DNA of 64,000 nt from Saitoella complicata NRRL Y-17804 (lineage: Eukaryota; Ascomycota; Saitoellomycetes; Saitoellales; Saitoellaceae): the NCBI RefSeq assembly GCF_001661265.1, contig NW_017567007.1, forward strand, positions 51,476 to 115,475. Direction: 5' to 3'. The translations under genes and the position numbers were made by a program. The notes beneath the pieces are model-generated. The model saw nothing but the letters and a program-made list of their open reading frames with translations, searched no databases and had not been told where the DNA came from. This document shows, one piece after another, positions 352-64,000 of this stretch (positions are counted from its first letter, which is position 1; every line of letters starts with the position of its first letter).

Positions 352-2958
352 AGGAAGGAAAATGTCGAAGTGAACCGGCCCGAAGGGTGTCGAGTTTTGT
401 TGACCCTTAAAAAGCTCCCGGTCGTTGTCGTGGTGTACTTCTAGCGAACCAACGTCGTTGAAAGTGGTGAAAAGAGAGAGTGACCAAGTCGTGTCACAGT
501 TGGTAACCAGGTTCAGATTGCAATTGCAACGGATTCAGCCGGGCCGTCTATAGTACCTGTACGTGTGAGTAGGCGACTTTGAAAGACATTCGACAAGGTT
601 CACCCCTTCCCGGGCTGGCGTTTCATTGCACGTATCTATAATATAAGGGTACGACAAGGCTGGGCGGTACATGGGAGGCTGTCTGGCGGGGGTCCGTTTC
701 AAGCTGGGAGCTCCTTTGTGTACGAGTCTACGTTTCAGGGCGCGCGCATCACCAGCTCCCTTTGTTCTGACTGTTACCGGATTAGGAAGTGTAATTGACC
801 TTCACCTCAAGAACCTTTAAACTCGTCCAAAACCTGCTCCAAATGACGCCCAATCACTCGAAATACCTCGACTCGAAGATGCTTGTGACCCAAGGGCCCT
901 CTTGATGTTGCGTTACCCGAGAGGCCCGTGCCGCGTGGCTCGGCACTCTATTCACGACCAAGTGGGACGGCACTGACATAACTCAATATCCGCCTGTTTG
1001 TGGTTGTGGTTTTGGCTTGCATCGATTTACATTCCTGGGCGAACAGTAGAGGGTGGATGGACCGCTTGCTGCGAATTGCCGAGATTGGGTGTCGGAGGTG
1101 CTTGTTGCTTAAAATAGCGACGACGTTGAGGGATGTGTGATGACGTGAATTCTGCGAGGAAGTTCTGAGAGGGAAGGTGTCAAGGGCAGCGTCCAAATGC
1201 CATGGATTGCCTTGCCTGATCTCCTGCCGCTTCTTCCTCAACCTTATAAACGCGGCTCACACGGCTCGGCCAACGAGTGCCCCGCCTTGGCTGATCATAA
1301 ACTTGGCATGTGAAGGTCATCTCCTCTCCTCGACACTCGCGGCTCACCACTGGTCACTCATTCCTCCAAGACCTCAAAGCTTGCTCAACGGCAGACTTAT
1401 CAGCAATATGAGCAGATCACAACCGTCTTAACCCGCCGTTACCGCTCGGCCCGCAGCGGAAAGCCCGGGTACGAAGCGCTCGGCAAGCAGTACCGCACCA
1501 TGACCTCATATCAACTTCAATTCACGACCTCAACCTTCGGATCGGTCCTTTCAATGTTTGGGTATGGGGAGAGTGAGAGATCTTGGTAGCCCTCGGCAGG
1601 TTTGTCAAGGTGACGGCTCAGAGCTGGGCCGCAGCTGGTGGTGGTCGTTGATCCTTAAATATGTTGACGTGGTCCTTAGGATGTGCTGATGTGTTAGCCT
1701 TGAGCTCCCCAACAATCGTGCTCTTGGACAGCGCGCCAAGTCTTAACGTTATCGGCACTTAGCATCAGCTGGGTGGGTATCGGAGGTTTGGGATGCATGG
1801 CATCAACCCCGATTTCTTCCGAGTAGCTGCCTTGACCATGGACGAGATATCCCTAGCCGGTACAATCTCGTGGTTGAACCCTTTCTGACAGCTACAGGTT
1901 CCTGTGGCATCGGCCAAGAAACTACTCACTCCACACGTCCTTCCGTTCCACATGCTCCAAGCTCCAAGCCCCAAGACTGCTCGTCAAACCGGAAATGTTC
2001 GTGTACAAGCCCTTTCCGTAATTTTGAGCATCGTCCAGAAACAGTGCTTTCTTGAGGAAGGGCTGCAGGTCATCATCGGCGTAGGCTTAGTGCTAGTGTG
2101 ATTTGCAATATATGTTCCCACGACCTCGCCGTCAAATGGACGGTTCTCGCGAAAACAACCTCGAAAAATCTCAAGAAACTGAAGAGATGTGAAGTCACAT
2201 ATGCGCCGATGCATCAACTACAGTACGGCTGACCTCGTAATGATCATTACCCCCGGACCACCATGTGCAATTGGACGGTATCACTTGTTTTCCAGACGCG
2301 GCCCATTGCTGGAGTAGGAAGCGGCAGAAGTGTGAATCCTGAGATTGCATCAGAAGGGTCGTAGAGTTAGAAAGTGCACGAAATCGTGTTCGAGAGTCGG
2401 GTCATGACAACGTACAGTCCAGGAGGACGAGTCCGCGATTGACATTGCTGACGGCGTGTCTTTGGTACGGCCATATAAAGCGAGCATTACTTCTGCGAAC
2501 CGGATAGAAATGGATTTGGACATCGAAAAATTGGAGAACCAGCCTCAATATCAATAGAAAGCATGCCAACATCATTCAAAACGCTTTGTTTGGAGATCAA
2601 AGCCATTCAACCACAAGATTCGTTTGTGAGTGTCAAACACCGCTCAAATATATACATGCAGGGTAGCACATGAAGCAGTGAGCGCGTGAATCAGATATCA
2701 TGATTCAAGAGGAACACGAGGAACTGCTCCAAATCTTGTTTCATCATATCCAGCTCGCGAGGAGAAGTTCGACGGGAATGGTTTTCACGGGGCTAGGACT
2801 GGCGTTGTGGTCGCAATCGACCACGTCCTTTTGTGACAGCGACGTCAAAGTCACGTTCCAAAGCAGAAAAATCCCAGGTGCAACCTCAGTCACCCCTCTA
2901 AAGAATGCTATTACTTATCGAATATCGCGTATGTTTCCAAATCACGTTTTCCGAAACA

Positions 2959-3012
2959 ACGCGAAAACAAAATGTGCCCTACGCAACTCGAACGTTGACC
3001 AGCGGCAGTCTA
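2959..3012 (+). repeat. Imperfect direct repeat, left copy, flanking the Rai1-like gene
   Basis: About 54 bp that aligns, with a few substitutions and one 4-bp gap, to 5226-5275. The shared cores are gcaactcgaac and cggcag, in the same order and orientation. The two copies bracket the intact Rai1-like gene. Confidence 0.45.
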
Positions 3013-3296
3013 GCGTGGGTTGTTTATAGCCAGATGTCATCCCTGGCGTTGGTCACGCTGCACCAGAGAGTTGGGTCACTGCACTTACTTATTTTCTTGA
3101 ATGGTAGGGCCGGAAAGTTACCTTCGCAGAGAGCATCTGACCGACACAGCCTTAACATGTGTACATTTACGTGGGGCGTAGGCCAGCGTGCGGGGTGTAA
3201 CGTCGATAAATTTGTCACCTCAAAAAAAAGCAGTTGCAATTGATCCGTCCTTTAAATTCAGCATTCCAACTCTCACAGCAAAATTGGTTTTGAATC

Positions 3297-5030
3297 ATGA
3301 CTACTATTGCCGGGGGAAATGGCGAAAAGCCGCCCAACAACCCTGGAAATAAGAATGCTGCTGATGGTGCCGGAACCAGCCAAGGTGTTCGCCAGAACAA
3401 GCGAGATTGCAGACGGCAGACGCAGAATCACGCTAGTAGGACTGGGGCGACTGCTTCTGTGTCGTCCGCAGGCAGCACAGCCGCCCCAGCTGCGATCAAT
3501 CTGGCTGCGAGGGAAGGGCTGTCCAATACTGTTGCTGGCCCTGTCATGAAATCGTGGTCCAGCATTGCAAGCTCGCATACGCCAGACATTGAACCGGAGC
3601 CGGATACGGAGAATGATTGCACAGTTCTAGGGTCGTACAACTGGTTCGAGAAGTCTAAGTGGTATAACGAAGCTCCAACAATCTGCGTTCCCGGTGAATT
3701 TGCGCATGTGTTTTGGTACGAGAAATACGCTAACAATTATACGCTAAGCTTCGCCCCGATATATCATCGAAAGACGCCACAGGAATTGCGGTTCCTGCCA
3801 AAAGACGACAAGGAAGAGCATCACGTTGATATCAACCGAGCGCATTCTTCGTTATCACCCCTGGAGCCACTGTTCCGGTCAGTTGCCCAATGTACACCTG
3901 CATTTAGGTTCGATCAGGTGGATGTTGTTACCCATCGTAATAATCTGCAAAAAATACTCAGCCCAAACAAGAATCATCGAAAATATCGCATCTACATTGA
4001 GCTAGTAGGACGGACGCTGTTGTGTGAACGATGGGACGGCAGGGTCACTGGCGCTGGAAAGGGATATGGTCACGCTTTCGAGAAGCGTGTTACACGAGGG
4101 TTGCCTGAAGCGGAATCATATCACCGGGTTATCACGTACAATTGCGGCGGCCTCAAGATGGTGGTCCGCACCGAAGTGGATGCTGTCAACCCTGATCCAA
4201 ACGTTCCTGACACCACTCCTATCTTACCCACGACCACCGCCCTTGGATTTGAAGGCACGACTCTTCAGTGCCTAGCATCGGACAATGCTATTCCTCAGCA
4301 AAGTCGTGTTGCCGAGTTAAAGTGCTTTTACGATAGAAACCCTTGGGAAGCGAGAGACACACTGCAATGCGTGCTGGGTCGAGTCCCCACCGGCTATTGT
4401 GCGAGACATCTATCAAGTCGCATGGGGGAGAACTTTATGGCTGATATTCAGAGGATTGACGAACATCATTTCAGTGCGATGGACTTCATTGATCCGGTGA
4501 TTGGGTCGCAGTTACGCAACTTCTTCGGCGCAATTAGGAAAGTGATGGCCAAGAGGGGAGTCAGCAAGACCGTACTGATTGGCGATTTGAAGGCAGGGAT
4601 TCAGCTACACCCGATGGGACGGGATAGGCGGGCAGCGCTTCCCGGGTCTTTAGTGGCAAGGATGTTGGAAACTCCCTCCAAGCCAGAAGACAAGAAGAAT
4701 GGGAAGGCGACGGAAGTAGACGTCTCCACCGACAAAACTAACAAGGTTCCTTGTTCTGGGACGCCAAAACCTCAGCAGACGAAGGTGGCGAACGAGCCTG
4801 TAACATCTTCGGGAGGCAAATCCAATTCGCGAACCCCGTCAAAGAGGAAAGCTGAGGGTGAGGCCGACGAAGAAGCCCCGGAGAGCAAGAAGGCAAAGAC
4901 AGGGGACGATGACGATGATAAGATCGAGGAGAAGCAGTGCACCAGAACCGTGAAGATGACCCGTTTTAAGAACAATCGTGAGGTTCATGAATGGGAGGAA
5001 AGGGGGAAAAAAGAGGTCTGGAGAAAGTGA
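3297..5030 (+). CDS. Rai1/DXO-like decapping nuclease family protein
   Basis: A 577-residue intronless ORF related to the Rai1/DXO family, nucleases that remove faulty or non-canonical mRNA 5' caps. Residues about 112-133 contain SYNWFE, then PTICVPG, matching the family's (S/G)YNW...PTI.VPG block. Residues 186-215 hold SPLEPLFRSV and a VDVVT.RNNL segment. The three metal-binding signatures are present: GHAFE with E262, E293-V-D295, and E340-L-K342, corresponding to the G..xE, ExD and ExK motifs, so the nuclease core looks intact. The last 110 residues are lysine/acid-rich with an SKRKAE nuclear-localisation-like tract. It belongs to the diverged fungal-specific branch, some of whose members carry misleading prenyl-synthase names; I see no prenyl-synthase motif. 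A decayed second copy lies 1.8 kb downstream. Substrate is not known. Confidence 0.72.
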   Translation: MTTIAGGNGEKPPNNPGNKNAADGAGTSQGVRQNKRDCRRQTQNHASRTGATASVSSAGSTAAPAAINLAAREGLSNTVAGPVMKSWSSIASSHTPDIEPEPDTENDCTVLGSYNWFEKSKWYNEAPTICVPGEFAHVFWYEKYANNYTLSFAPIYHRKTPQELRFLPKDDKEEHHVDINRAHSSLSPLEPLFRSVAQCTPAFRFDQVDVVTHRNNLQKILSPNKNHRKYRIYIELVGRTLLCERWDGRVTGAGKGYGHAFEKRVTRGLPEAESYHRVITYNCGGLKMVVRTEVDAVNPDPNVPDTTPILPTTTALGFEGTTLQCLASDNAIPQQSRVAELKCFYDRNPWEARDTLQCVLGRVPTGYCARHLSSRMGENFMADIQRIDEHHFSAMDFIDPVIGSQLRNFFGAIRKVMAKRGVSKTVLIGDLKAGIQLHPMGRDRRAALPGSLVARMLETPSKPEDKKNGKATEVDVSTDKTNKVPCSGTPKPQQTKVANEPVTSSGGKSNSRTPSKRKAEGEADEEAPESKKAKTGDDDDDKIEEKQCTRTVKMTRFKNNREVHEWEERGKKEVWRK

Positions 5031-6831
5031 GAAGGTTGTGGAGGAGAAGGTTGATGATGGTTTATGTTTGGCGTTCCGCTCGAACGGAACGTTTACCACT
5101 CGCTGCAAGTGGTACGGGAAACAAACAAGGTTTCAATGTCCAAAATCAAGGATGTTCTTTTTAATGATCATTATCCTTTCTTTATTCCAAGTTGAACATC
5201 TATCACTTAATCACAAGCCTCTAAAACGCACGAAACCAAAAGTGCGTATCGCAACTCGAACCAACGGCAGATCTAATGGTTGCGAGCGACTTACGTGGTA
5301 CAACACCCTTTTCGGGGTATGATAACTTTAGTCCATGCTTCATTCCGCCGCAATATAGAAGGTGGACATGGCACACAGCTTCCACCTTGATTGTTGGGGC
5401 AGAAACGGACAGTTACGTATACCTAAAGGACACTAGCGTACTCATTTGGGCCGGCGCAAGAATGTATGGTTATGGCAAAATGAATGAGCGACGCCGGGAA
5501 CTCTGAAAGGTGTTTACATGATATTAGATTCCATAATTGATACTCAATGTTGACGAAATGCCATACCACACAAACATATTTGTAGCGCCGTGAAGCGAGG
5601 AAGATGGTCCTCAAGACGATCTAATCCAGCCCCTACAGCTTCCGTGCAGCTGCGTCCAGGGCGAGTTACGAATACACCAGTTGAATTGACGCAACCTGCA
5701 CTGAGGTAGACAAGAAGATGGGTGATCCGTTAAGATAGAGACGATTCGTTGGTGTAGCTCGGCCTGCTGGTATCCGGGATTCAGAGCCATGAAGCTTTCG
5801 TTGATATCGACACCGGACATGCGGAACAACGGTGCCGGTGACAGAAGCAGAAACCTGGATTCATTGTCGCTGTGACAGACTGTTAGGCAATACTAGTACT
5901 CTCCATGGTTCGATTCTGTACCGGCTTGCTCCCTCTTACCTTATCGACCTTTCCAACCACCCATACGAGCTTGAGAATCCCACGGGTTGTCGTGAAGCCG
6001 TCATGTCAATTGAATCTCATCATCAAGTTTTATATTTGAGGCATTTGGAGCCCAATTAGACTGACCCGAACGGTGTTGATCCAGTAGTTGTAGTTCTTAC
6101 CTTGTAACTCACCCTCGCTGCTCCAACTACACGGCTGTGTCAAGCATCACTCATATGGATACACCTGCTGGAAAGCAGGTGTCCGTCGGCAACGAATCGG
6201 CGACACCTACAACTCCCAGTCTTGCAACGCTGTTATATATAGGCTTCGACCACCATCAGCATCTCCTGGTCTCCTACACGAAGCCTGACTGCTTTTTCGA
6301 AAAACGAAAAAACGAAAAAACAAAAGATGGGGGTCGGTTCGGAACCAGTGGAAGTCCCGGACCTATAGACATTCTGCATATGGCATGTCATCTCGCCTCA
6401 TAGGTTAACCACTGCCCTAGAGGAGCCTGATACGCTGTTTGTATGAGAAATGACTGGCTCATAAAGACCGGGGAGTTACCTAGAACGGACTAGCGTGCAC
6501 GGTTTGAACACCATGAGAAGCAAGTGCAGGTGTGCTCGTGACTGGTGAAGGCGGGATTGTCATGGACATGGGTCATCAGCCTTGGCCAGACGGACCTCTG
6601 GAAGGTCAATTCACCATCGCACCTTTGATCCAGCGACCATTTCGACAACATTGAAACCCATAAGAACACACTATGTCTCACAACGAAGAAGTAAACAGGG
6701 CGAGGATTCGACAATCCACCAGACACGGAAGAAATCTCAAGTTTGAGAAAACTGCTGCCTCTGTCCCCGATTTGAGCAACCTGGTGAACTTGGCACAACG
6801 AGAGAAAGTGACCAATGTCCATGGCTAAATG
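5031..6831. other. Intergenic region between the intact and decayed Rai1-like copies
   Basis: Only short, unrelated reading frames. A minus-strand frame near 5611-5890 reads like protein (…FRMSGVDINESFMALNPGYQQAEL…) but is short, has no start or splice context I could support, and matches no family I know. A perfect 9-bp-arm hairpin sits at about 6162-6183. The segment just before 6832 may include the degenerate 5' part of the second Rai1-like copy. Confidence 0.5.
5226..5275 (+). repeat. Imperfect direct repeat, right copy
   Basis: Partner of 2959-3012 (same orientation, shared cores gcaactcgaac and cggcag). It begins about 200 bp after the stop codon of the Rai1-like gene. Confidence 0.45.
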
Positions 6832-8135: not shown

Positions 8136-11100
8136 ATGGGTAAGCCCTAATACTCCCCCCATGCGATACACAAACCTTATTCATTCCTTCAGACGGTGCC
8201 GTAGCAGATCCCTCGAGCAATCAGCATGGCCTGCTGCCTCTGCACCACGTCGAGCATGCCGTCGCGGGATTGGACAATGGAAGTGAACAACAACCTGACG
8301 GAGGAGAGGGACGGGATGGGCATGTGTCGGAAGTTGAGGAAGGTGTGGACGGTACGCCGTTCTCGATACCGGAGTTTGGGGAGTCAATTCCGCCGGATCA
8401 GCAACCCGAGCAACAACACACACCTCCAACATCCGTAGACCCTTCCCGGAAGCGAAGTCGTGACGAGATGTCGCAATCGCAACAAGCGGAAGGAACAGGT
8501 GCTGATCATGCTGATCTCGGTTTCCCTATACCTGACGGAAGTGGGGACGGAGAGCCGGATGGCAAGAAGCAGCATCTCGACCTTGACACTATGGATCACG
8601 AAGCTTTCGCACGGAGCTTGGAGAGCCATAATGCTGGTCATGAGGTTCTACAACACGGAAATGCTGAGCATACAATGCCAGACCTGACCTCGCATGGGGA
8701 TGTACATATTCCCTTTGATCCTGCCCAGGGACATGCGGATCCGAGTCGGCTCTTGGGCTTGACATTACATCCGCCGGACTTCTCACTGCCCGATTTCTCT
8801 GTCGCTATCGCGTTAAGGATCGAGAACTTGGATGTCATGGATGCGCTCGCTACACGAATACTGGGGGTATTGGCTAAGGGGCCGTATCAGGAGACGCTCA
8901 ACATCGTGACTCGACTCGACACGTTAGACTCGCAAGCATATCGCGTTCTCGTGTCTGCTTTTACGTCATTGAAGAAGCTATACTCCGAGGAAGCTTTCTT
9001 CAATGCTGATCTTCTTGGATTGATTGATCCTGAGCAGCGGGGTGTCGTGAGAAAAACCAATCTGGCGACTTTCGTTAGTAGTGTGTTCGGCAGTACGGAG
9101 GTTGGGTTCTTTCATTTGAATGAGCATTTCTTGGATGTGTTTGTTCCGGACGGTGGGAGGTTGTTGAAGCCTCAGGGACAGCTATTCCTGGATTTGAAGA
9201 CTCAGGCGTATATTAGTGCGATGACGCAAGCCGAGCGACCTCAGCACGAGATCATTGAGGAATTGTTCCCTAGTATTCTCCCTCAGCTCTTGGTTGCCCG
9301 ACATCCCCATTCGTCCAAGAATTTGTCGCAATCGGAGACCGACTTCATCAATAAGGCGCAGCAACGCCGCGAAGTTCTTGAGCAGACTACATCACCGGAA
9401 GGCCTTGCTGTCCTCGGTGAGAAATATGTATGGCAGGGCTTTTTGAAGGATGTCGCCGAATATGTTGCCAAGAATCACGAATCTATTGTTGGTGTGGGCG
9501 GTCGTAAGAGGCGAGCAGGGATGAACGGGACGGCGAAAGAGCCGCAGATGCCGAAGCCGAGTCGAAGGGTTCAGGTTATTCCAGGATACCCAGCCCAACA
9601 TCATTGGCAAGGTGCGGACGGTACTGTTGTTGGAGTGCCGGTGGTTCACCACGAACCCGCTCTACACCAATACCAGGTCCAGCATGTCCAGCTTGCGCAA
9701 GACCCGAACATCCAGTACCAGCTCCCACTGCCGCACTTGGTACAGCACCAACATTTACAGGCAGCCGTTCAGCAACACGTCGTACCTCCGCCGCCCATGT
9801 TCGTCCATGAGCAGACGGCAGCGACGACGTTGTCTGTTGTTTCTGCAATTTCCGAGGGGCAGCATCAGCCGAGTGTGCCGCCTCAGGAGCAGCAGCAGTA
9901 TCAGCAAGTTGAGCAACAGACTGTTGACAACCATGTTCAACCTCAGCCGCAGCCTGAACAAAGCATGCCGCCGCCGTCAGGGCATGGCGAACCACAAGTG
10001 CAGCAAGCCACTGTGGAACCTACACCGCAGCCACATGTTGTACAAGCTCCTGAGCAGCAGGTGCAACCCGAGCCCGCTCACCCCCACGTTCAGGTGCAGG
10101 AGCCTACTCCGCAAGCCGTACCTCCACCTCCCGCACCAGAACAAGGACATCCCCATCCCGAACCCCTTCATCATCCTCAACCACAAGAAGAGCATGCTCA
10201 AATGCAAGTTCGGCTGCCCTTTCCAGGGGAACACCAGCAGCAGCAACAGATGCCAGTTCAGTCTCAGCTCGTTTCTCACGAAGCGACGCCGGCAGCTACA
10301 CCTGCACCACCCCCAGCTGCTCTGCCGGTTCAATTACAGCAGCAAATGTCAAGGCCAATGGAAGCTCCTGGTACTCCTATGGCGCACACTCCTGCTCCCG
10401 GTATGCCGCAAGCAGGTACTCCTGCTCCTCCAACACCTATCAAGCCGGCATCGACGCCAGCTCCCGAACAGCCTGTCGCGCTCCACAAGATCGACCCCAC
10501 TCTTAGTACGCAGCAGCAGTATGAACGTGCTCGCGCTGCTGCACGGCCGAACCCGACTAGACGTGGTAAGCCGACGCAGCGAAGACATTGGTCGAAAGAG
10601 GAGGAAGATGCGTTGTTTGCTGGTTTGGATGCGTTGAAGGGACCGCACTGGAGTCAGATTTTGGCGTTGTATGGGCCTGGTGGGTCGATCTCCGAGGCGT
10701 TGAAGGACAGAACGCAGGTTCAGTTGAAGGATAAGGCGCGTAACCTGAAGCTCTGGTTCCTCAAGAACAACTTCGAAGTCCCACATTACTTGAAGTGCGT
10801 CACTGGTGATCTGAAACGAGGACGTGGGGAAAGCTTGGAAGCGGAGGAGGGTGAGGGTGTGGAAGGAAGTCCTGCGCCGAAGAAAGAGAAGAAAGCGAAG
10901 GGTAAAGGGAAAGCCGGACAAGAGGGCGAGGCGGCGGAGGAAGCTGCGCAGGAGGCACAGGATGTTAGGGATGCGCAGGACGCGAAGGAAGAGGATCTGG
11001 TTGCTCCAGTTGGCGGCAATGGGGAGTATGTTTCTACGAAGGCGGAGGATCTTGCACATGGGCATGCTGTGCAGCATATGAACGGTCAACCTGGTGTCGA

Positions 11101-11623
11101 GGGTCATGGACAACCGGCAGCACTTGATCATAACCTCATGCCACACGAGCCTACTCAACAACAGCAACTCGAACAGCAAGGCGACGCAATTCAATTGCAA
11201 GCGGTGCAAGAGTATGCCCAGCAACTGGATCCTAACCATCAATACGACCCTAACATGCAGTACCACCACGACCCTACGCAAGACATGCAGATGAACTTTG
11301 GCGTGGATGGACAGGTTATGCACGGTTTCGAGCATCCCTACGTGGATTATACGCATCATCACCAGCAATTGGGTGTTGGTGGTGATGAAGGTGATAAATA
11401 CAACCTGGAGAATATGGATCCGGCGTTGCAGGCTGCTGCGCAGGAGGTACATGAGCCTGTTGCGCATGTGGAGGTGATGCATCAAGAACATGGACATCAT
11501 GAAGTGCAGGGTGGTGAAGTGCATCACCCCGAGGAGTACGTTCACCACCATGAGCAGCAGGTGGAGGAGGTGCATCAGGAGGGTCATCTTCCGGTGCACG
11601 CGATTGACCCTAGCTTGCAGTGA
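8136..11623 (+). CDS. TBF1: Telomere-repeat-binding factor (Tbf1/Taz1/TRF-like, TRFH + telobox Myb)
   Basis: A 1144-residue protein made from a 4-nt first exon (ATGG, 8136-8139), a 53-bp intron (GTAAGC...TTCAG) and one long exon from 8193; the in-frame region upstream of 8270 has no other ATG, which is why I chose this start. Residues about 190-420 form a helical block (…FFHLNEHFLDVFVPDG…, LFLDLKTQAYI) that looks like the TRF-homology dimerisation domain of fungal Tbf1/Taz1. A long Gln/Pro/His-rich linker follows. Residues about 795-860 are a single Myb/SANT repeat (RRHWSKEEEDALFAGLDALKG...HWSQIL) ending in a VQLKDKARNLK telobox signature, the hallmark of TTAGGG-binding Myb proteins. The C-terminus is Gln/His-rich. 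Such proteins bind telomeric or subtelomeric TTAGGG repeats and some promoters. Confidence is high for the DNA-binding domain, moderate for choosing Tbf1 over Taz1. Confidence 0.82.
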
Positions 11624-12049: not shown

Positions 12050-15000
12050 ATGCCGAACTCGACACTACTCGCAGAATTTGCAGCCAGGCTCAAGTCACCT
12101 GGCCTTGAGAACGGAGACCGCAATGTTGTACTGGATGGCAATTCGCTCTCTCCTGGCGTCTTATACGATGTTGCCCACTCGGGTGTTCGCGTCTCTCTGT
12201 CGCCGCACACGAAGGCCCCTGTTGACAACTGTGCCCAATGGCTGGAGGAGCAACTTGCCAAGGGCGAAGTCATCTACGGCGTGAACACTGGGTTCGGTGG
12301 TAGTGCAGATACGAGGACGAAGGATACATGGGGTCTACAGGCGTCGCTTATTAGGCACCTTAATGTCGGCGCATTGGAGGGTGGGAAGTTGGATGCAGCG
12401 GACGTCAGAGCAGCAATGTGCATTCGCGTCTCGTCCGCTCTTCATGGCGCTAGTGCGGTCCGTTGGTCGACAGTTCAGGTGATGGAGACAATGCTCAATG
12501 CCGGGGTTACGCCTGTCATCCCCCTTCGAGGCTCTATCTCAGCAAGTGGTGATCTTATCCCGCTGAGCTACATCGCTGCTGCTCTGACTGGGAAGAATGG
12601 CTCGTTCTGTGATGTCCGTGGGAAGTCGGATCCGGTGCCTTCCTCAGACGCTTTGGCGGCGTTGAATGCTGGGCCCTTGACGCTGAGTCCGAAGGAAGGC
12701 CTTGCTATTGTCAATGGGACGAGTGTTGGCGCTGGTGTTGCGAGTAATGTTTCCGTAGAGGTTGACAGTCTGCTTGCTGCTGCCACCATCGCAAGTGCAC
12801 TCGTGATGGAAGCCGTCGGATCTGAATTTGCCGGTGAGCCATCGGCCACGGTGTGCGGAAATAAGGACATAGAGGGTGTATTCAAGGTATTGTTGCTTTC
12901 TCCTGCTAGTTGGAGAGAGTTGCGCAAGGAGATCACGGGAGGATACCCCCGCAACGGGCGCGAGAAGGTCTCACTAGCAACAGTGTCCTCGTTTCTCACG
13001 GCTGCTCTGCATCATCTCAACACAGCTATGGCAACCCTAACCATCGAACTCAACTCCGTTACGGACAATCCCCTCTTCCATCCCCAAAGCAACACGACCC
13101 TCCACGGTGGGAACTTCCAAGCGATGGCCGTGACTCGTGCCGTTTCCTCCCTCGCCACCACCCTCGTCCTCCTCGCCGAGCTGCTTTACGCATTACACGC
13201 TTCGATGGTTAACCACGACATCAGTGGGCTCACCCCAAATCTTGCATGGGGTGACCCCAGCCGAGATTTTGGAATGAAGGGTGTTGATATTGCGATGTGT
13301 GCGTTGCTGAGTGAGATCCAGTCTCTTGCTTCTGGAGACGTTTCAAGCCATATCCGGTCGGCGGAGTTGGATAACCAGAGTGTCAATTCGATGGCTCTTG
13401 TTGCTGCGAGGAAGGCGAGGGAGATGACGAAGTTGGTCAAGATCATGGTGGGTTATGTGCTGCTTGAGGCATGTCAAGCCCTTGATCTCGCGAAGAAACG
13501 CAAGTTGTTCCTCACTGCGGCTTCGGAGTTCGTTGTAGATAGGGCCAGTCGCTGCTTCGAAACGCATCCCGCAGTATCTGCTCAGCTTGAGAAGACCTTT
13601 ATCCTGCAATATGAGGCTACAAAGACTATGGATGTGCGAATGAGGATGGAACACATCGCCGCGAGTATTGTGCCTCACCTTATCCAAACTTCCTCTAATG
13701 CTGAACACATTCACGAGCTACTCCAAGGCACCTGGAAGAAGAACACTGCGGCAGTATTGGAGCATATGTGGTCGTCACTCAAGAGATCTGAAGCGAATGG
13801 GTCGATACCGTTGTCCCCTGTTATTCAGCCTCTTCTCGCTAGAATTTACACCCACATCCGTGATGATCTGGAGGTTGATACCCATGAGTTCGGTCACAGC
13901 GAGATCCCTCATGGTGCTGTAGTTGACATTATCGTCCGCGAATTGGCACCGAAGCACGGAAGATTGGCGGTCGAAATCGCTGAGGTGATTGCTGCAGCTG
14001 TATCGACGGCACCATCATATACTAATGGCTCAACGAACGGCCATACCCCTAGCGGACGTCTTCCTTCTCCTGATGTGTCCGCCCATGACGAAATTGCGGC
14101 TTCTTCCGCTAATCTTCTGAAGATCTCTCAAATATCTACTGCACTGGCAGCCGAAGCCCTCCTCGGCACCATTGAGTCTTACGACCCAAAAGTACACGCC
14201 CTACGTCCTCATCCAGGCCAAATCCGCGTCGGCGCCAATCTCACCCGTTTGTTGAAAAGTTCTCGCCTCATCCACCAGCACACGCCGGACGCGGACTTGA
14301 GCTTGGGTGATCGCGGCCTAAGTGGACCGAGGGAACTCAAGCAAGACCGCTACGCACTCCGTACAGCACCACAATGGATCGGACCGCAGATGGAGGCATT
14401 AGAGATTGTGATTGGAGTTTTCAGTGATCCCGATGCCTCTGACATCGCGAGGATTTGCGCGCTTGATGGCGTGAGAGCTTGTGTGCAGGCACTTTGCCGG
14501 TTAGCGATGGCGCAATTGACGGAGATCATGACCGATTCGATGAATAAGGGATTGCCGCACAGTCCTGAGGCGGGTATCTCGGACCAGCATCAAGCAGAGG
14601 GGACGATGGCGAAGCTTGAGTTGCTCTCTGCGCCGTTACTCTCCCACATGCAAAACGGGGAAATCAACAAACTCGATACACTCGTTCAACAATCTATCCG
14701 CACTACTACTGAGGCTTTGACGGCAGCGAAAGAGATATTTACGGCACATATGTATGCGTGTGTGAGGGCGGTTGAGCAAAGGGTGATGTTGGAGGAGAAA
14801 ATCACTCATATTCAGACAGCAGTGGAAACACGATACGGAGAATTGCTGCCGGGGTTCACTCAACAAGCTCTTGGCACGATCAGACAGATTTTACAAGCTT
14901 CGTCGCGACATGACGAAAGCATGTTGGTGAATGCGTTGTCCAGTTTGTTACTACTTCATGTCGACATCTCGATTCCGGATGAGGAACCTCCTACGATTGA

Positions 15001-15247
15001 TATCAGCAGGAAGAGTTTACAAGTACAGTCACGACTTTCTGAACTAAAGTCGGTGATATCAGAGGCCATGGCCACTTTCAAGAACGAAGCAGACGCGGGG
15101 GAATACGTCGGGGATGCTACGAGGGAGATGTTTGTATGCTTGCGTGGATTGTGTCAGGAGAGTGGAGGGCTGGAGGGGCTGAAGAATGTACCAGAGTTTC
15201 TTGAGGGGAAATACCTCAAGAAGGTGTTAGATGCGTGTTTGCCTTGA
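12050..15247 (+). CDS. MIO-type aromatic amino acid ammonia-lyase with split/tandem architecture
   Basis: A 1065-residue intronless member of the phenylalanine/histidine ammonia-lyase family; ordinary fungal PALs are about 700-750 residues. Module 1 (about 1-640) has the catalytic loop IYGVNTGFGG (Tyr76), the MIO-forming Ala165-Ser166-Gly167 in SISASGDLIPLSYIAAA, LAIVNG (Asn221), ELNSVTDNPL, HGGNFQ (351-356) and AELDNQSVNS (Glu438). The block that normally follows LAIVNG, containing HPGQ and QDRYALRT.PQ, is absent there and replaced by unrelated residues 262-315. That block appears instead at 719-780 (RPHPGQ at 719-724; QDRYALRTAPQWIGPQ from 765, Tyr768), followed by helices resembling the PAL core (LAMAQLTEIM...NKGLP, SIRTTTEALTAA) but with no TDNPL, HGGNFQ or MIO. 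I infer a fusion of two lyase modules with complementary losses. Family reaction: loss of ammonia from an aromatic amino acid; activity here is unproven. Confidence 0.8.
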   Translation: MPNSTLLAEFAARLKSPGLENGDRNVVLDGNSLSPGVLYDVAHSGVRVSLSPHTKAPVDNCAQWLEEQLAKGEVIYGVNTGFGGSADTRTKDTWGLQASLIRHLNVGALEGGKLDAADVRAAMCIRVSSALHGASAVRWSTVQVMETMLNAGVTPVIPLRGSISASGDLIPLSYIAAALTGKNGSFCDVRGKSDPVPSSDALAALNAGPLTLSPKEGLAIVNGTSVGAGVASNVSVEVDSLLAAATIASALVMEAVGSEFAGEPSATVCGNKDIEGVFKVLLLSPASWRELRKEITGGYPRNGREKVSLATVSSFLTAALHHLNTAMATLTIELNSVTDNPLFHPQSNTTLHGGNFQAMAVTRAVSSLATTLVLLAELLYALHASMVNHDISGLTPNLAWGDPSRDFGMKGVDIAMCALLSEIQSLASGDVSSHIRSAELDNQSVNSMALVAARKAREMTKLVKIMVGYVLLEACQALDLAKKRKLFLTAASEFVVDRASRCFETHPAVSAQLEKTFILQYEATKTMDVRMRMEHIAASIVPHLIQTSSNAEHIHELLQGTWKKNTAAVLEHMWSSLKRSEANGSIPLSPVIQPLLARIYTHIRDDLEVDTHEFGHSEIPHGAVVDIIVRELAPKHGRLAVEIAEVIAAAVSTAPSYTNGSTNGHTPSGRLPSPDVSAHDEIAASSANLLKISQISTALAAEALLGTIESYDPKVHALRPHPGQIRVGANLTRLLKSSRLIHQHTPDADLSLGDRGLSGPRELKQDRYALRTAPQWIGPQMEALEIVIGVFSDPDASDIARICALDGVRACVQALCRLAMAQLTEIMTDSMNKGLPHSPEAGISDQHQAEGTMAKLELLSAPLLSHMQNGEINKLDTLVQQSIRTTTEALTAAKEIFTAHMYACVRAVEQRVMLEEKITHIQTAVETRYGELLPGFTQQALGTIRQILQASSRHDESMLVNALSSLLLLHVDISIPDEEPPTIDISRKSLQVQSRLSELKSVISEAMATFKNEADAGEYVGDATREMFVCLRGLCQESGGLEGLKNVPEFLEGKYLKKVLDACLP

Positions 15248-16723: not shown

Positions 16724-16796
16724 TCCCCCGTGGTCTAGTGGTTATGATGCCCCCCTAGTAAGGGGGTGATCGCTGGTTCAAATCCGGCCGGGGGAA
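16724..16796 (+). tRNA. tRNA-Thr (anticodon AGU)
   Basis: 73 nt fold as a cloverleaf: acceptor arms TCCCCCG and CGGGGGA with discriminator A, a D-arm TGGTCTAGTGGTTATGA, an anticodon arm CCCCC-CTAGTAA-GGGGG, and a T-loop GGTTCAAATCC. The loop CTAGTAA places AGT at positions 34-36, which decodes ACU/ACC (Thr) after inosine modification. No intron. A copy with the same sequence lies in the opposite orientation at 20870-20942, and 19 bp reaching from its upstream flank into the gene are shared. Confidence 0.92.
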
Positions 16797-20521: not shown

Positions 20522-20869
20522 CGCTGATTACCGGAGGGAAGAAGGACGAAGGTTTGTACTATAGGGTGGAGCCGATTGAAAGCTTAGACTGTGAATAATG
20601 ATTACTGGATCCTGAAAACTCTTCCCCTGCTAGAAACTGAAGACAGGAAGGTTGACGTTTATGATCTGGTGTTTATGCTGTCGCGTATCGATAGTCGGCG
20701 TCGTACATGCGTCGACGTCAGTCTAACTGAGGGTGGGGAAGTAACGCAGTCGTAGGAAAGCGATGAAACTCCGCAGTCATGTTCACGGAGACACAAAAGG
20801 AAAGCCTGTCAGATAGAAAGCGAGCAGCTTGGCGCATCTGCCCAAACAGCGAGACAAGAAAAAAGTGAT
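20522..20869. other. Intergenic between VPS24 and tRNA-Thr
   Basis: No gene seen. Upstream region of VPS24; nothing else recognised. Confidence 0.4.
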
Positions 20870-20942
20870 TCCCCCGGCCGGATTTGAACCAGCGATCACC
20901 CCCTTACTAGGGGGGCATCATAACCACTAGACCACGGGGGAT
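20870..20942 (-). tRNA. tRNA-Thr (anticodon AGU), second copy
   Basis: The reverse complement of this stretch is the same 73-nt cloverleaf as at 16724-16796, with anticodon loop CTAGTAA. The shared sequence starts upstream of the gene (aaacatcaaccatcccccg in both, which includes the first bases of the acceptor stem), which points to duplication with flank rather than independent origin. Confidence 0.92.
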
Positions 20943-62803: not shown

Positions 62804-64000
62804 CAGCTGGTTGCAAAATGCCTGTCGCAATCTGCAGGTAGCTGCACATGCTCTGTAAACCCTCACCGTAAAACCAACAGAACAACTCCATTGAAGGCCT
62901 AGGAAGGTCGCAAACGGTTCGAAATGTTTGGTGAGATATGCGACAATAGCACACGGTCCATAGTTATCGAGAACTACATCGAGGGCTATGACGTTCACCA
63001 ACTCAGTGAGATCATCAACCAATCGGTACGAACCATTTACAGGATTGTCAAGAGATTCGAGGAGGAAGGCACCCATGAGCGCCTCCCTACCACGCACTGT
63101 GGTAGGACGCCTCAGATTGACTCCCGCATAGGCATGGTAAGTGACCTGCCCCATCGAGGACCTTGGCTGAAACGCTGGGCATGGCATGACAGCATATCAA
63201 GGCCCTGTATGATCTGAACCCTACCCTATACCAGGATGATTGCGCAGAGTTTATGAACCAGGAATTTGCCACTTCACTATCGAAGTACCATGTCTGTCGA
63301 TACCTCAAAAAGATTGGATATACTCGAAAGACTCTTATGCTAAGGGCAGCAGAACGGAACGGCATTTTACGTGCGCAACACGCCATATCAATGGCTGAAT
63401 ACAGTCAAGAACAACTGGTCTTTCTCGATGAGTCTGCTGTCGATGAGAGGACTGCTACCCGCAAATTTGGTTATGCGCCAGTCGGTACTAGGGCGATTGA
63501 GGAGAGACTGTTTGCTCGAACCAAACGTTGGAGTGTATTGCCTGCACTTACCTCGACAGGGCTCCATGCTTTATCGGTCTTTCAGGGATCCTTCAATGCT
63601 GATCGATTTGTCGAATTCGTCGAACATGAACTGCTACCAATTCTCAACCCCTACCCTGGTCCGAACAGCGTGGTTGTCCTTGACAACTGCCGTATCCATC
63701 ATGACGAAAGGGTATATGAACTCATTGTTCAACGCGCTGGATGTCGACTCCATTTTTTGCCGCCTTACTCACCAGACCTCAATCCAATCGAGCTCTGCTT
63801 CAGTATGATGAAGGCCTGGATGAAGCGCAACAATGAGCATGAGTTAGTTCGATCAGACCCTGAGGGTTACATACGCTGCGCAATCGACTCAATCAATGAG
63901 CACCCTGACAAGATCCGCAACTTGTATATGAACTGCGGTTATGCATTGTCAGATGCAGAGTTACGTCGGTATGTCGAGGTTAACAACCAGGTCACTATTG
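62804..64000 (+). mobile_element. Tc1/mariner-like transposon, left end and transposase (continues past the edge)
   Basis: A TA dinucleotide (62802-62803) is followed by cagctggttgcaaaatgcct, the inferred left TIR, 120 bp before the transposase ATG. The TIR is related to the MITE at 54677-55286. The right end is outside the window. Confidence 0.6.
62924..64000 (+). CDS. Tc1-like transposase, apparently intact, partial at right edge
   Basis: Exon 1 (62924-63136, 71 codons) encodes a helix-turn-helix (YDVHQLSEIINQSVRTIYRI) and ends RIGM. A 56-bp GTAAGT...CAG intron joins in phase to exon 2 (63193 onward), which is open for 269 codons up to the window end. Exon 2 has the second DNA-binding domain (YQDDCAEFMNQEFATSLSKY, RYLKKIGYTRKTL), the first catalytic Asp in LVFLDESAVDER, KRWSVLPAL, FNADRFVEFVEHEL, the second Asp in VVVLDNCRIHHDER, and LPPYSPDLNPIELCF with the catalytic Glu. 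By my count 35 residues separate the last two, one more than Tc1. The protein continues past NNQVTI. No stop or frameshift is visible, so this copy may be active. Confidence 0.85.

Follow-up and report, generated by a model that had tools for sequence, protein, structure and literature searches.

A two-module lyase gene

The stretch of DNA analysed here, hereafter the window, comprises 64,000 nucleotides of contig NW_017567007.1 of Saitoella complicata NRRL Y-17804 and contains a gene for an ammonia-lyase of the 4-methylideneimidazol-5-one (MIO) family with an uncommon build. The gene is one uninterrupted frame at window positions 12050..15247 (+), 1065 codons without an internal stop, and its identification as a two-module aromatic amino acid lyase of 1065 amino acids (aa) is based on the open frame, the PF00221 score and the codon usage. 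Calculated from the window's own stop frequency, the chance of a stop-free run of 1065 codons is 2.4e-16, and the codon usage of the whole open reading frame (ORF) matches that of ten other ORFs in the window (z 8.7 versus synonymous shuffles). No other MIO-lyase frame was found in a search of the window's frames with E values up to 1.

MIO-dependent ammonia-lyases and aminomutases follow a rule of one module per chain, and this rule is broken here by two non-equivalent modules in the same chain. Module 1 (residues 1-657, 12050..14020, +) is a lyase of the phenylalanine ammonia-lyase (PAL) type that runs from the MIO domain through the C-terminal domain, as seen in its match to TIGR01226 and in its model. 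Module 2 (residues 658-1065 including the linker, 14021..15244, +) corresponds to a PAL core and C-terminal part without a MIO domain, as indicated by profile matches, AlphaFold2 and Foldseek. The two are separated by a Ser/Gly/Asn/Thr/Pro linker starting at about residue 657 (14018..14092, +), recognised by its sequence and by a predicted local distance difference test (pLDDT) score below 50 over residues 649-761 of the full-length model, a range that includes a part of module 2 modelled without alignment there.

The profile searches confirmed that the fused chain consists of a PAL-type MIO lyase module and a partial PAL core module. PF00221 (aromatic amino acid lyase) scored 437.6 bits for the whole chain, 350 for module 1 and 100.3 for module 2, all above the cut-off of 27.3, and TIGR01226 (the eukaryotic PAL equivalog) scored 473.0, 377.7 and 107.2 bits, respectively. 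Module 1 matched TIGR01226 in a single stretch (residues 23-627 to profile positions 30-661 of 680), and the profile match thus reaches through the eukaryotic PAL C-terminal (shielding) domain. When the whole chain was compared with solved structures by phmmer, PAL 1w27 was matched three times and in permuted order: residues 43-252 to 77-290, 687-784 to 276-367 and 330-495 to 374-540. By blastp the modules show no remaining resemblance to each other (best E 0.62).

An initial annotation of this DNA had described an ammonia-lyase whose active-site blocks are divided between two fused modules. The block positions in the chain were borne out, with all motifs at the residues given, including HPGQ/QDRY after the linker. 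The separate alignment of the modules to PAL that it had suggested runs end to end for module 1; for module 2 (408 aa with the linker) the match to PAL does not begin until about residue 281, inside the core. The second copy, described there as a complementarily degenerate module, is not a second full module but a core and C-terminal fragment lacking the MIO domain.

Catalytic blocks of module 1

We judged conservation against a reference set of 75 bacterial MIO lyases, using the 103 columns that are conserved in 90% or more of the sequences. Five of 80 genome loci (L005, L024, L031, L037 and L069) had been dropped because they failed a frame rule requiring YG.[NTC]TG, and the conservation of the YGxNTG-loop columns among the 75 relatives is by construction.

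Module 1 keeps 34 of the 44 conserved columns of the MIO domain. The alignments place the lid-loop block YGVNTGFGG at residues 76-84 (12275..12301, +), with Tyr76 as the catalytic residue, and LAIVNG with Asn222 at residues 218-223 (12701..12718, +). The MIO-forming triad Ala165-Ser166-Gly167 (12542..12550, +) corresponds to [AST]SGDL, found in 75 of 75 bacterial relatives; it is present in module 1 only, where MIO formation is predicted. The substrate-selectivity pair His103-Leu104 lies in RHLNVG (12353..12370, +), whose aligned counterparts are RFLNAG in 1w27 and RHLNAG in the sorghum PAL 6at7. Further downstream, TDNPL (residues 338-342, Asn340) and LHGGNFQ (351-357, Phe356) at 13061..13120 (+) retain 9 of 11 conserved columns, and alignments locate DFGMKGVDIAM (Lys410, Ile414) and SAELDNQSVNS (437-447; Glu439, Gln443) at 13265..13390 (+). 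Of the last five conserved columns two are kept.

The exception is the HPGQ/QDRY segment (residues 255-329, 12812..13036, +), in which only 2 of 15 conserved columns are kept. This block had been reported as missing from module 1; we found that it has not been deleted but has eroded in place. Module 1 searched alone aligns straight through the segment, which has a nearly normal length (77 residues versus 83 in 1w27 between the flanking matches), and in the alignment REKVSLAT (12959-12982, +) stands where QDRYALRT is expected, with Val307 in place of the Tyr and Ala310 in place of the Arg. The initial annotation had supposed residues 230-330 to be free of the block: by position a segment corresponding to it does lie there, by its residues it does not. 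Tyr299, Arg301 and Arg304 remain just upstream of, or at, the expected QDRY place. The QDxYxxR block that belongs between LAIVNG and DNPL is thus not present in module 1 and sits in module 2.

Module 2 and reciprocal loss

Module 2 carries an intact block, RPHPGQI (719-725) followed by KQDRYALRTAPQW (764-776), with Gln765, Tyr768 and Arg771 (14204..14377, +). It retains 12 of the 15 conserved columns and scores 63 bits to the bacterial MIO-lyase profile. None of the 75 bacterial relatives has fewer than 12 of these 15 columns, and the regular expression QDxYxxR occurs in 72 of them (not in L028, L048 and L059). QDRY is the best-kept block of module 2; its other core blocks retain 1/11 (DNPL-GGNF), 4/15 (h3-KG), 1/13 (SANQE-SM) and 0/5 (the last five) columns, and MNKGLP is found at residues 831-836. 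Six apparent column matches in the MIO domain are taken as stray alignment of the N-terminal stretch of the module.

The loss of the TDNPL and HGGNFQ blocks from module 2, as originally noticed, holds: 1 of 11 columns is kept, and a deletion of about 22 residues (24 residues versus 46 in Rhodosporidium toruloides PAL between the flanking matches) leaves a short turn at 14420..14479 (+) in the alignment and the model. Across the QDRY and DNPL-GGNF blocks (2/15 and 9/11 columns in module 1, 12/15 and 1/11 in module 2) the loss is reciprocal, with a Fisher p of 5e-4 for those two blocks. These counts support two fused PAL-type modules that have degenerated reciprocally.

Module 1 therefore holds the MIO triad, the lid Tyr, the LAIVNG Asn, the DNPL Asn, the HGGNF Phe, the Lys/Ile and the Glu/Gln pairs and lacks the QDRY Tyr and Arg; module 2 holds the QDRY Gln, Tyr and Arg and has lost most other conserved positions. 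From the alignment we take Asn222, Asn340 and Arg771 of the QDRY block to be the carboxylate-binding residues. Since module 1 has the two Asn together with the MIO triad and lid Tyr, and module 2 has Arg771 and Tyr768, the losses are sorted as one would expect if module 2 lends its QDRY block to module 1.

Predicted structures

For structure prediction the 75 reference sequences were reduced to 40 by a 68% identity filter and to 37 by the presence of both motifs. Module 2 alone, predicted by AlphaFold2 with these 37 bacterial rows, gave a mean pLDDT of 78.6 and a predicted template modelling (pTM) score of 0.75, with the long core helices in place. Two helices (full-length residues 773-792 and 798-827) are separated by five residues, which replace the DNPL-GGNF loop. 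Foldseek, applied to the module 2 model only, returned 1y2m, the R. toruloides PAL, as the best solved match (E 4e-13; template modelling score 0.72 by query length; root-mean-square deviation 5.8).

In the full-length model, alignment rows covered module 1 only, since MAFFT put QDRY fragments on module 1. The ten-residue pLDDT means of module 1 are at least 79 over residues 21-260 and 311-430, and amount to 48, 80, 66, 53 and 58 over residues 261-310 within the eroded segment. In module 1 a helix of 26 residues (309-334), about 39 angstroms if straight, links the QDRY position to the DNPL-GGNF hairpin. With QDRY at the start of this helix and DNPL/GGNF at its end, the same subunit cannot serve both to one site, provided that the helix is straight. 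Judged by this topology, the QDRY block of a subunit should sit at one end of the core bundle and its DNPL/GGNF blocks at the other, so that they belong to different sites.

Genomic context

Immediately upstream of the lyase gene lies a gene for a telomere-repeat-binding factor (8270-11620, +) with a TRF domain (PF08558) and a Myb match under its cut-off. Another gene in the window combines a GDE1-like C2 domain with SPX, ankyrin and GDPD parts, a build known from fungi. The ribosomal protein L26 encoded in the window scored best with 7r81 (173.6 bits) and 8esq (172.2 bits), the next chain being only about 1 bit lower; these entries are the ribosomes of Neurospora and of fission yeast. Taken singly the L26 match is weak evidence, but the window is probably fungal. 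Two inverted tRNA-Thr (AGT) genes, at 16724-16796 (+) and 20869-20941 (-), lie about 4 kb apart and have the same Rfam score. A frame at 63253-63999 (+) that runs past the window end presumably encodes a DDE transposase-like protein of the IS630/Tc1-mariner type, judged by eye only.

A MIO-less paralogue in Pseudomonas

Among 84 bacterial MIO-lyase loci, one Pseudomonas locus (L070) contains a degenerate paralogue beside an intact gene (1932-3479 and 3536-5083). This paralogue has no ASG triad (GSVGYLTHMAH), reads QDALSIR for QDPYSLR and ANPHG for GGNFH, and thus lacks both the QDxY Tyr and the GGNF Phe; it is perhaps the gene called hutH1. A match at 79% identity or more was found in 30 of 40 genomes drawn from Pseudomonas, the query's own genome included, and four of these 30 matches contain one internal TAG. 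In 25 of the 30 a second MIO-lyase match, which in G035 is in two pieces, lies no more than 250 bases away (the exceptions are G009, G023, G024, G026 and G027). In all seven pairs that were read (L070 and L085-L090, six of them picked for adjacency) the first gene has these losses and the second has its motifs intact. The paralogue may serve histidase as a partner or regulator.

Proposed working of the enzyme

What does a chain with its catalytic blocks sorted in this way do? We consider it somewhat probable that the product is a single-chain pseudo-heterodimeric aromatic amino acid ammonia-lyase that acts most likely on tyrosine and phenylalanine. A more specific proposal, which we put forward tentatively and with slightly more doubt than belief, is that the fusion has broken the symmetry of the homotetramer, so that the catalytic residues are sorted by pole in a pseudo-tetramer with two working and two dismantled sites. 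How the modules pair, how many sites form and which activity and substrates result we infer from the anatomy described above.

MIO enzymes are homotetramers in which each of the four sites is built from three subunits, according to two reports (PMC9002059; PMC11432326), and in the former the substrate carboxylate is described as held by two Asn and one Arg. In the pseudo-tetramer, two chains would pair such that the MIO poles of both module 1 copies face the same end, to which the module 2 copies would lend Tyr768 and Arg771. One pole would then hold two complete sites and the opposite pole two dead ones, at which nothing would have kept the MIO domain and the loops from being lost. Pairing could take place within a chain or between chains, since the linker is flexible enough to permit either. 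PMC9002059 also reports that a His/Leu position decides substrate choice and that His favours tyrosine; together with His103-Leu104, which is arranged as in the sorghum PAL 6at7, this makes tyrosine and phenylalanine the likeliest substrates, and the protein is perhaps a lyase for both.

Several observations weigh against this reading. Which subunit lends which residue is argued from helix topology rather than from a tetramer model; in the open-licence literature we found no paper that names the chain lending Tyr351, Arg354 or Phe400. The full-length model has a pTM of 0.63, and all but one of the ten-residue blocks of module 2 fall below a pLDDT of 60; being poorly modelled without an alignment, module 2 leaves this model silent on the packing of the modules. 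Low confidence is also seen at residues 431-440 (51; the Glu439 block) and in much of the C-terminal domain of module 1, and the drop is hence not peculiar to the eroded segment. In module 1 the h3-KG region has kept no more than 4 of its 15 conserved columns, and the SANQE-SM region 6 of 13. PAL departs from the bacterial enzymes there, and module 1 shows PAL-like versions (FGMKGVDIAM, SAELDNQSVNS); these low counts may partly reflect that difference and partly some real loss. The curated TIGR01226 cut-off of 519.15 is missed by the whole chain and by both modules, which by NCBI's rule are therefore not called PAL. Taken alone, the codon-usage signal is weak both for the eroded block of module 1 (z 1.6) and for the QDRY block of module 2 (z 1.9, with another frame slightly higher). 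Finally, no relative with the same layout was found among the solved sequences, in IMG/VR or in the 84 bacterial loci.

Alternative explanations

The fused chain might instead be a poor pseudo-enzyme or regulator that enters the tetramers of a canonical PAL from a gene elsewhere and tunes that enzyme by lending or withholding parts. We regard this as unlikely, although it is the strongest of the alternatives. Each module is degenerate in some respect, and MIO-less paralogues are kept in nature, one of them conserved in Pseudomonas; this retention of degenerate MIO-family subunits keeps the idea of a pseudo-enzyme alive for the window protein too. Yet a pure regulator would not need the full MIO-pole set held by module 1, and module 2 retains exactly the block that module 1 has lost.

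It is improbable that module 1 is active alone, with an altered carboxylate site or on another kind of substrate, and that module 2 forms a mere tail, structural or vestigial. The end-to-end PAL alignment of module 1 agrees with this, as do the Tyr and Arg residues still near the eroded segment, of which Tyr299, Arg301 or Arg304 could substitute for the QDRY residues; that possibility counts against lending by module 2. A vestige, however, does not explain why QDRY is by far the best-kept block of module 2. More improbable still is a decaying gene on its way to becoming a pseudogene: motifs are lost in both modules and there are no relatives to show constraint, but the frame is open over all its 1065 codons, the codon usage is host-like, and the losses are complementary rather than scattered. 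Least probable of all, and in our view very improbable, is an artefact, be it two genes, a mis-joined assembly or a splice restoring the canonical order, given the single unbroken frame across the linker, modules too dissimilar for a collapsed repeat, and the inability of ordinary splicing to move a downstream block upstream of TDNPL.

How did the single-chain lyase arise? The initial annotation had proposed a tandem fusion followed by reciprocal loss. The reciprocal loss is upheld by the column counts and fits the fold geometry; the tandem fusion is plausible. With modules that are no longer alike, the fusion must be old. The further proposals of that annotation, namely that the modules pair to make an active site, that possibly half the sites are live, and that a new substrate or a regulatory role came of it, are conjectural. 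A recent tandem duplication was rejected because the modules have no remaining similarity, and an intron or exon shuffle restoring the canonical order was rejected as well.

Significance and comparison with known systems

If the pseudo-heterodimeric reading is true, the chain would be nature's own map of the residues that each subunit has to lend, in that the losses of each module show which residues come from elsewhere. Shared sites are usually dissected by mixing mutants in vitro, and here evolution appears to have run that experiment. The chain would further be a testable case of subfunctionalisation within one polypeptide, and a template for the design of PALs, which are used in enzyme therapy and biocatalysis, with separately tunable halves.

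Is the two-module layout found elsewhere? It is absent among the 39 distinct solved sequences that were matched, the longest of which has 742 aa, and in none of the 84 bacterial loci (80 genome, 4 plasmid; with short flanks) does any single frame match the bacterial MIO-lyase profile more than once. In IMG/VR neither six exact-peptide patterns from the whole protein nor a degenerate codon pattern for QDRYxLRTxPQW (0 matches) found a counterpart, and a fused or split MIO lyase was not seen in the titles and abstract openings of the open-licence literature, among the matches listed. None of these sources covers fungal proteomes, and some clade of fungi may well have this layout commonly.

To our knowledge, the protein would be the first natural MIO enzyme of such a build, and its known relatives each share only a part of it. 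R. toruloides PAL (1y2m, 1t6j) has the same fold, MIO triad, lid Tyr and C-terminal domain and is the solved structure that module 2 matches best, both in its sequence and as a model, but it consists of one 716-residue module per chain with every block in one copy. Likewise, plant PAL (1w27, and 6at7 from sorghum) and the Taxus phenylalanine aminomutase (4baa, 2yii), the best-scoring solved relatives of module 1, are single modules with an intact QDRY block. The hutH-like paralogue of Pseudomonas resembles the chain in being a retained degenerate MIO-family subunit, usually adjoining an intact one; it differs in that the genes are separate and in that ASG, the QDxY Tyr and the GGNF Phe are all lost together, so that it is not complementary in the same way. 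Plant hetero-oligomeric PAL isoforms also form mixed tetramers of non-identical subunits, but they are encoded by separate genes and every subunit is catalytically complete. In the intragenic complementation of argininosuccinate lyase, finally, the sites are built from three subunits, so that differently broken subunits jointly restore activity, as we propose for the two modules; there, in contrast, the enzyme belongs to another branch of the fold, and the broken subunits come from separate alleles and not from a fixed fusion.

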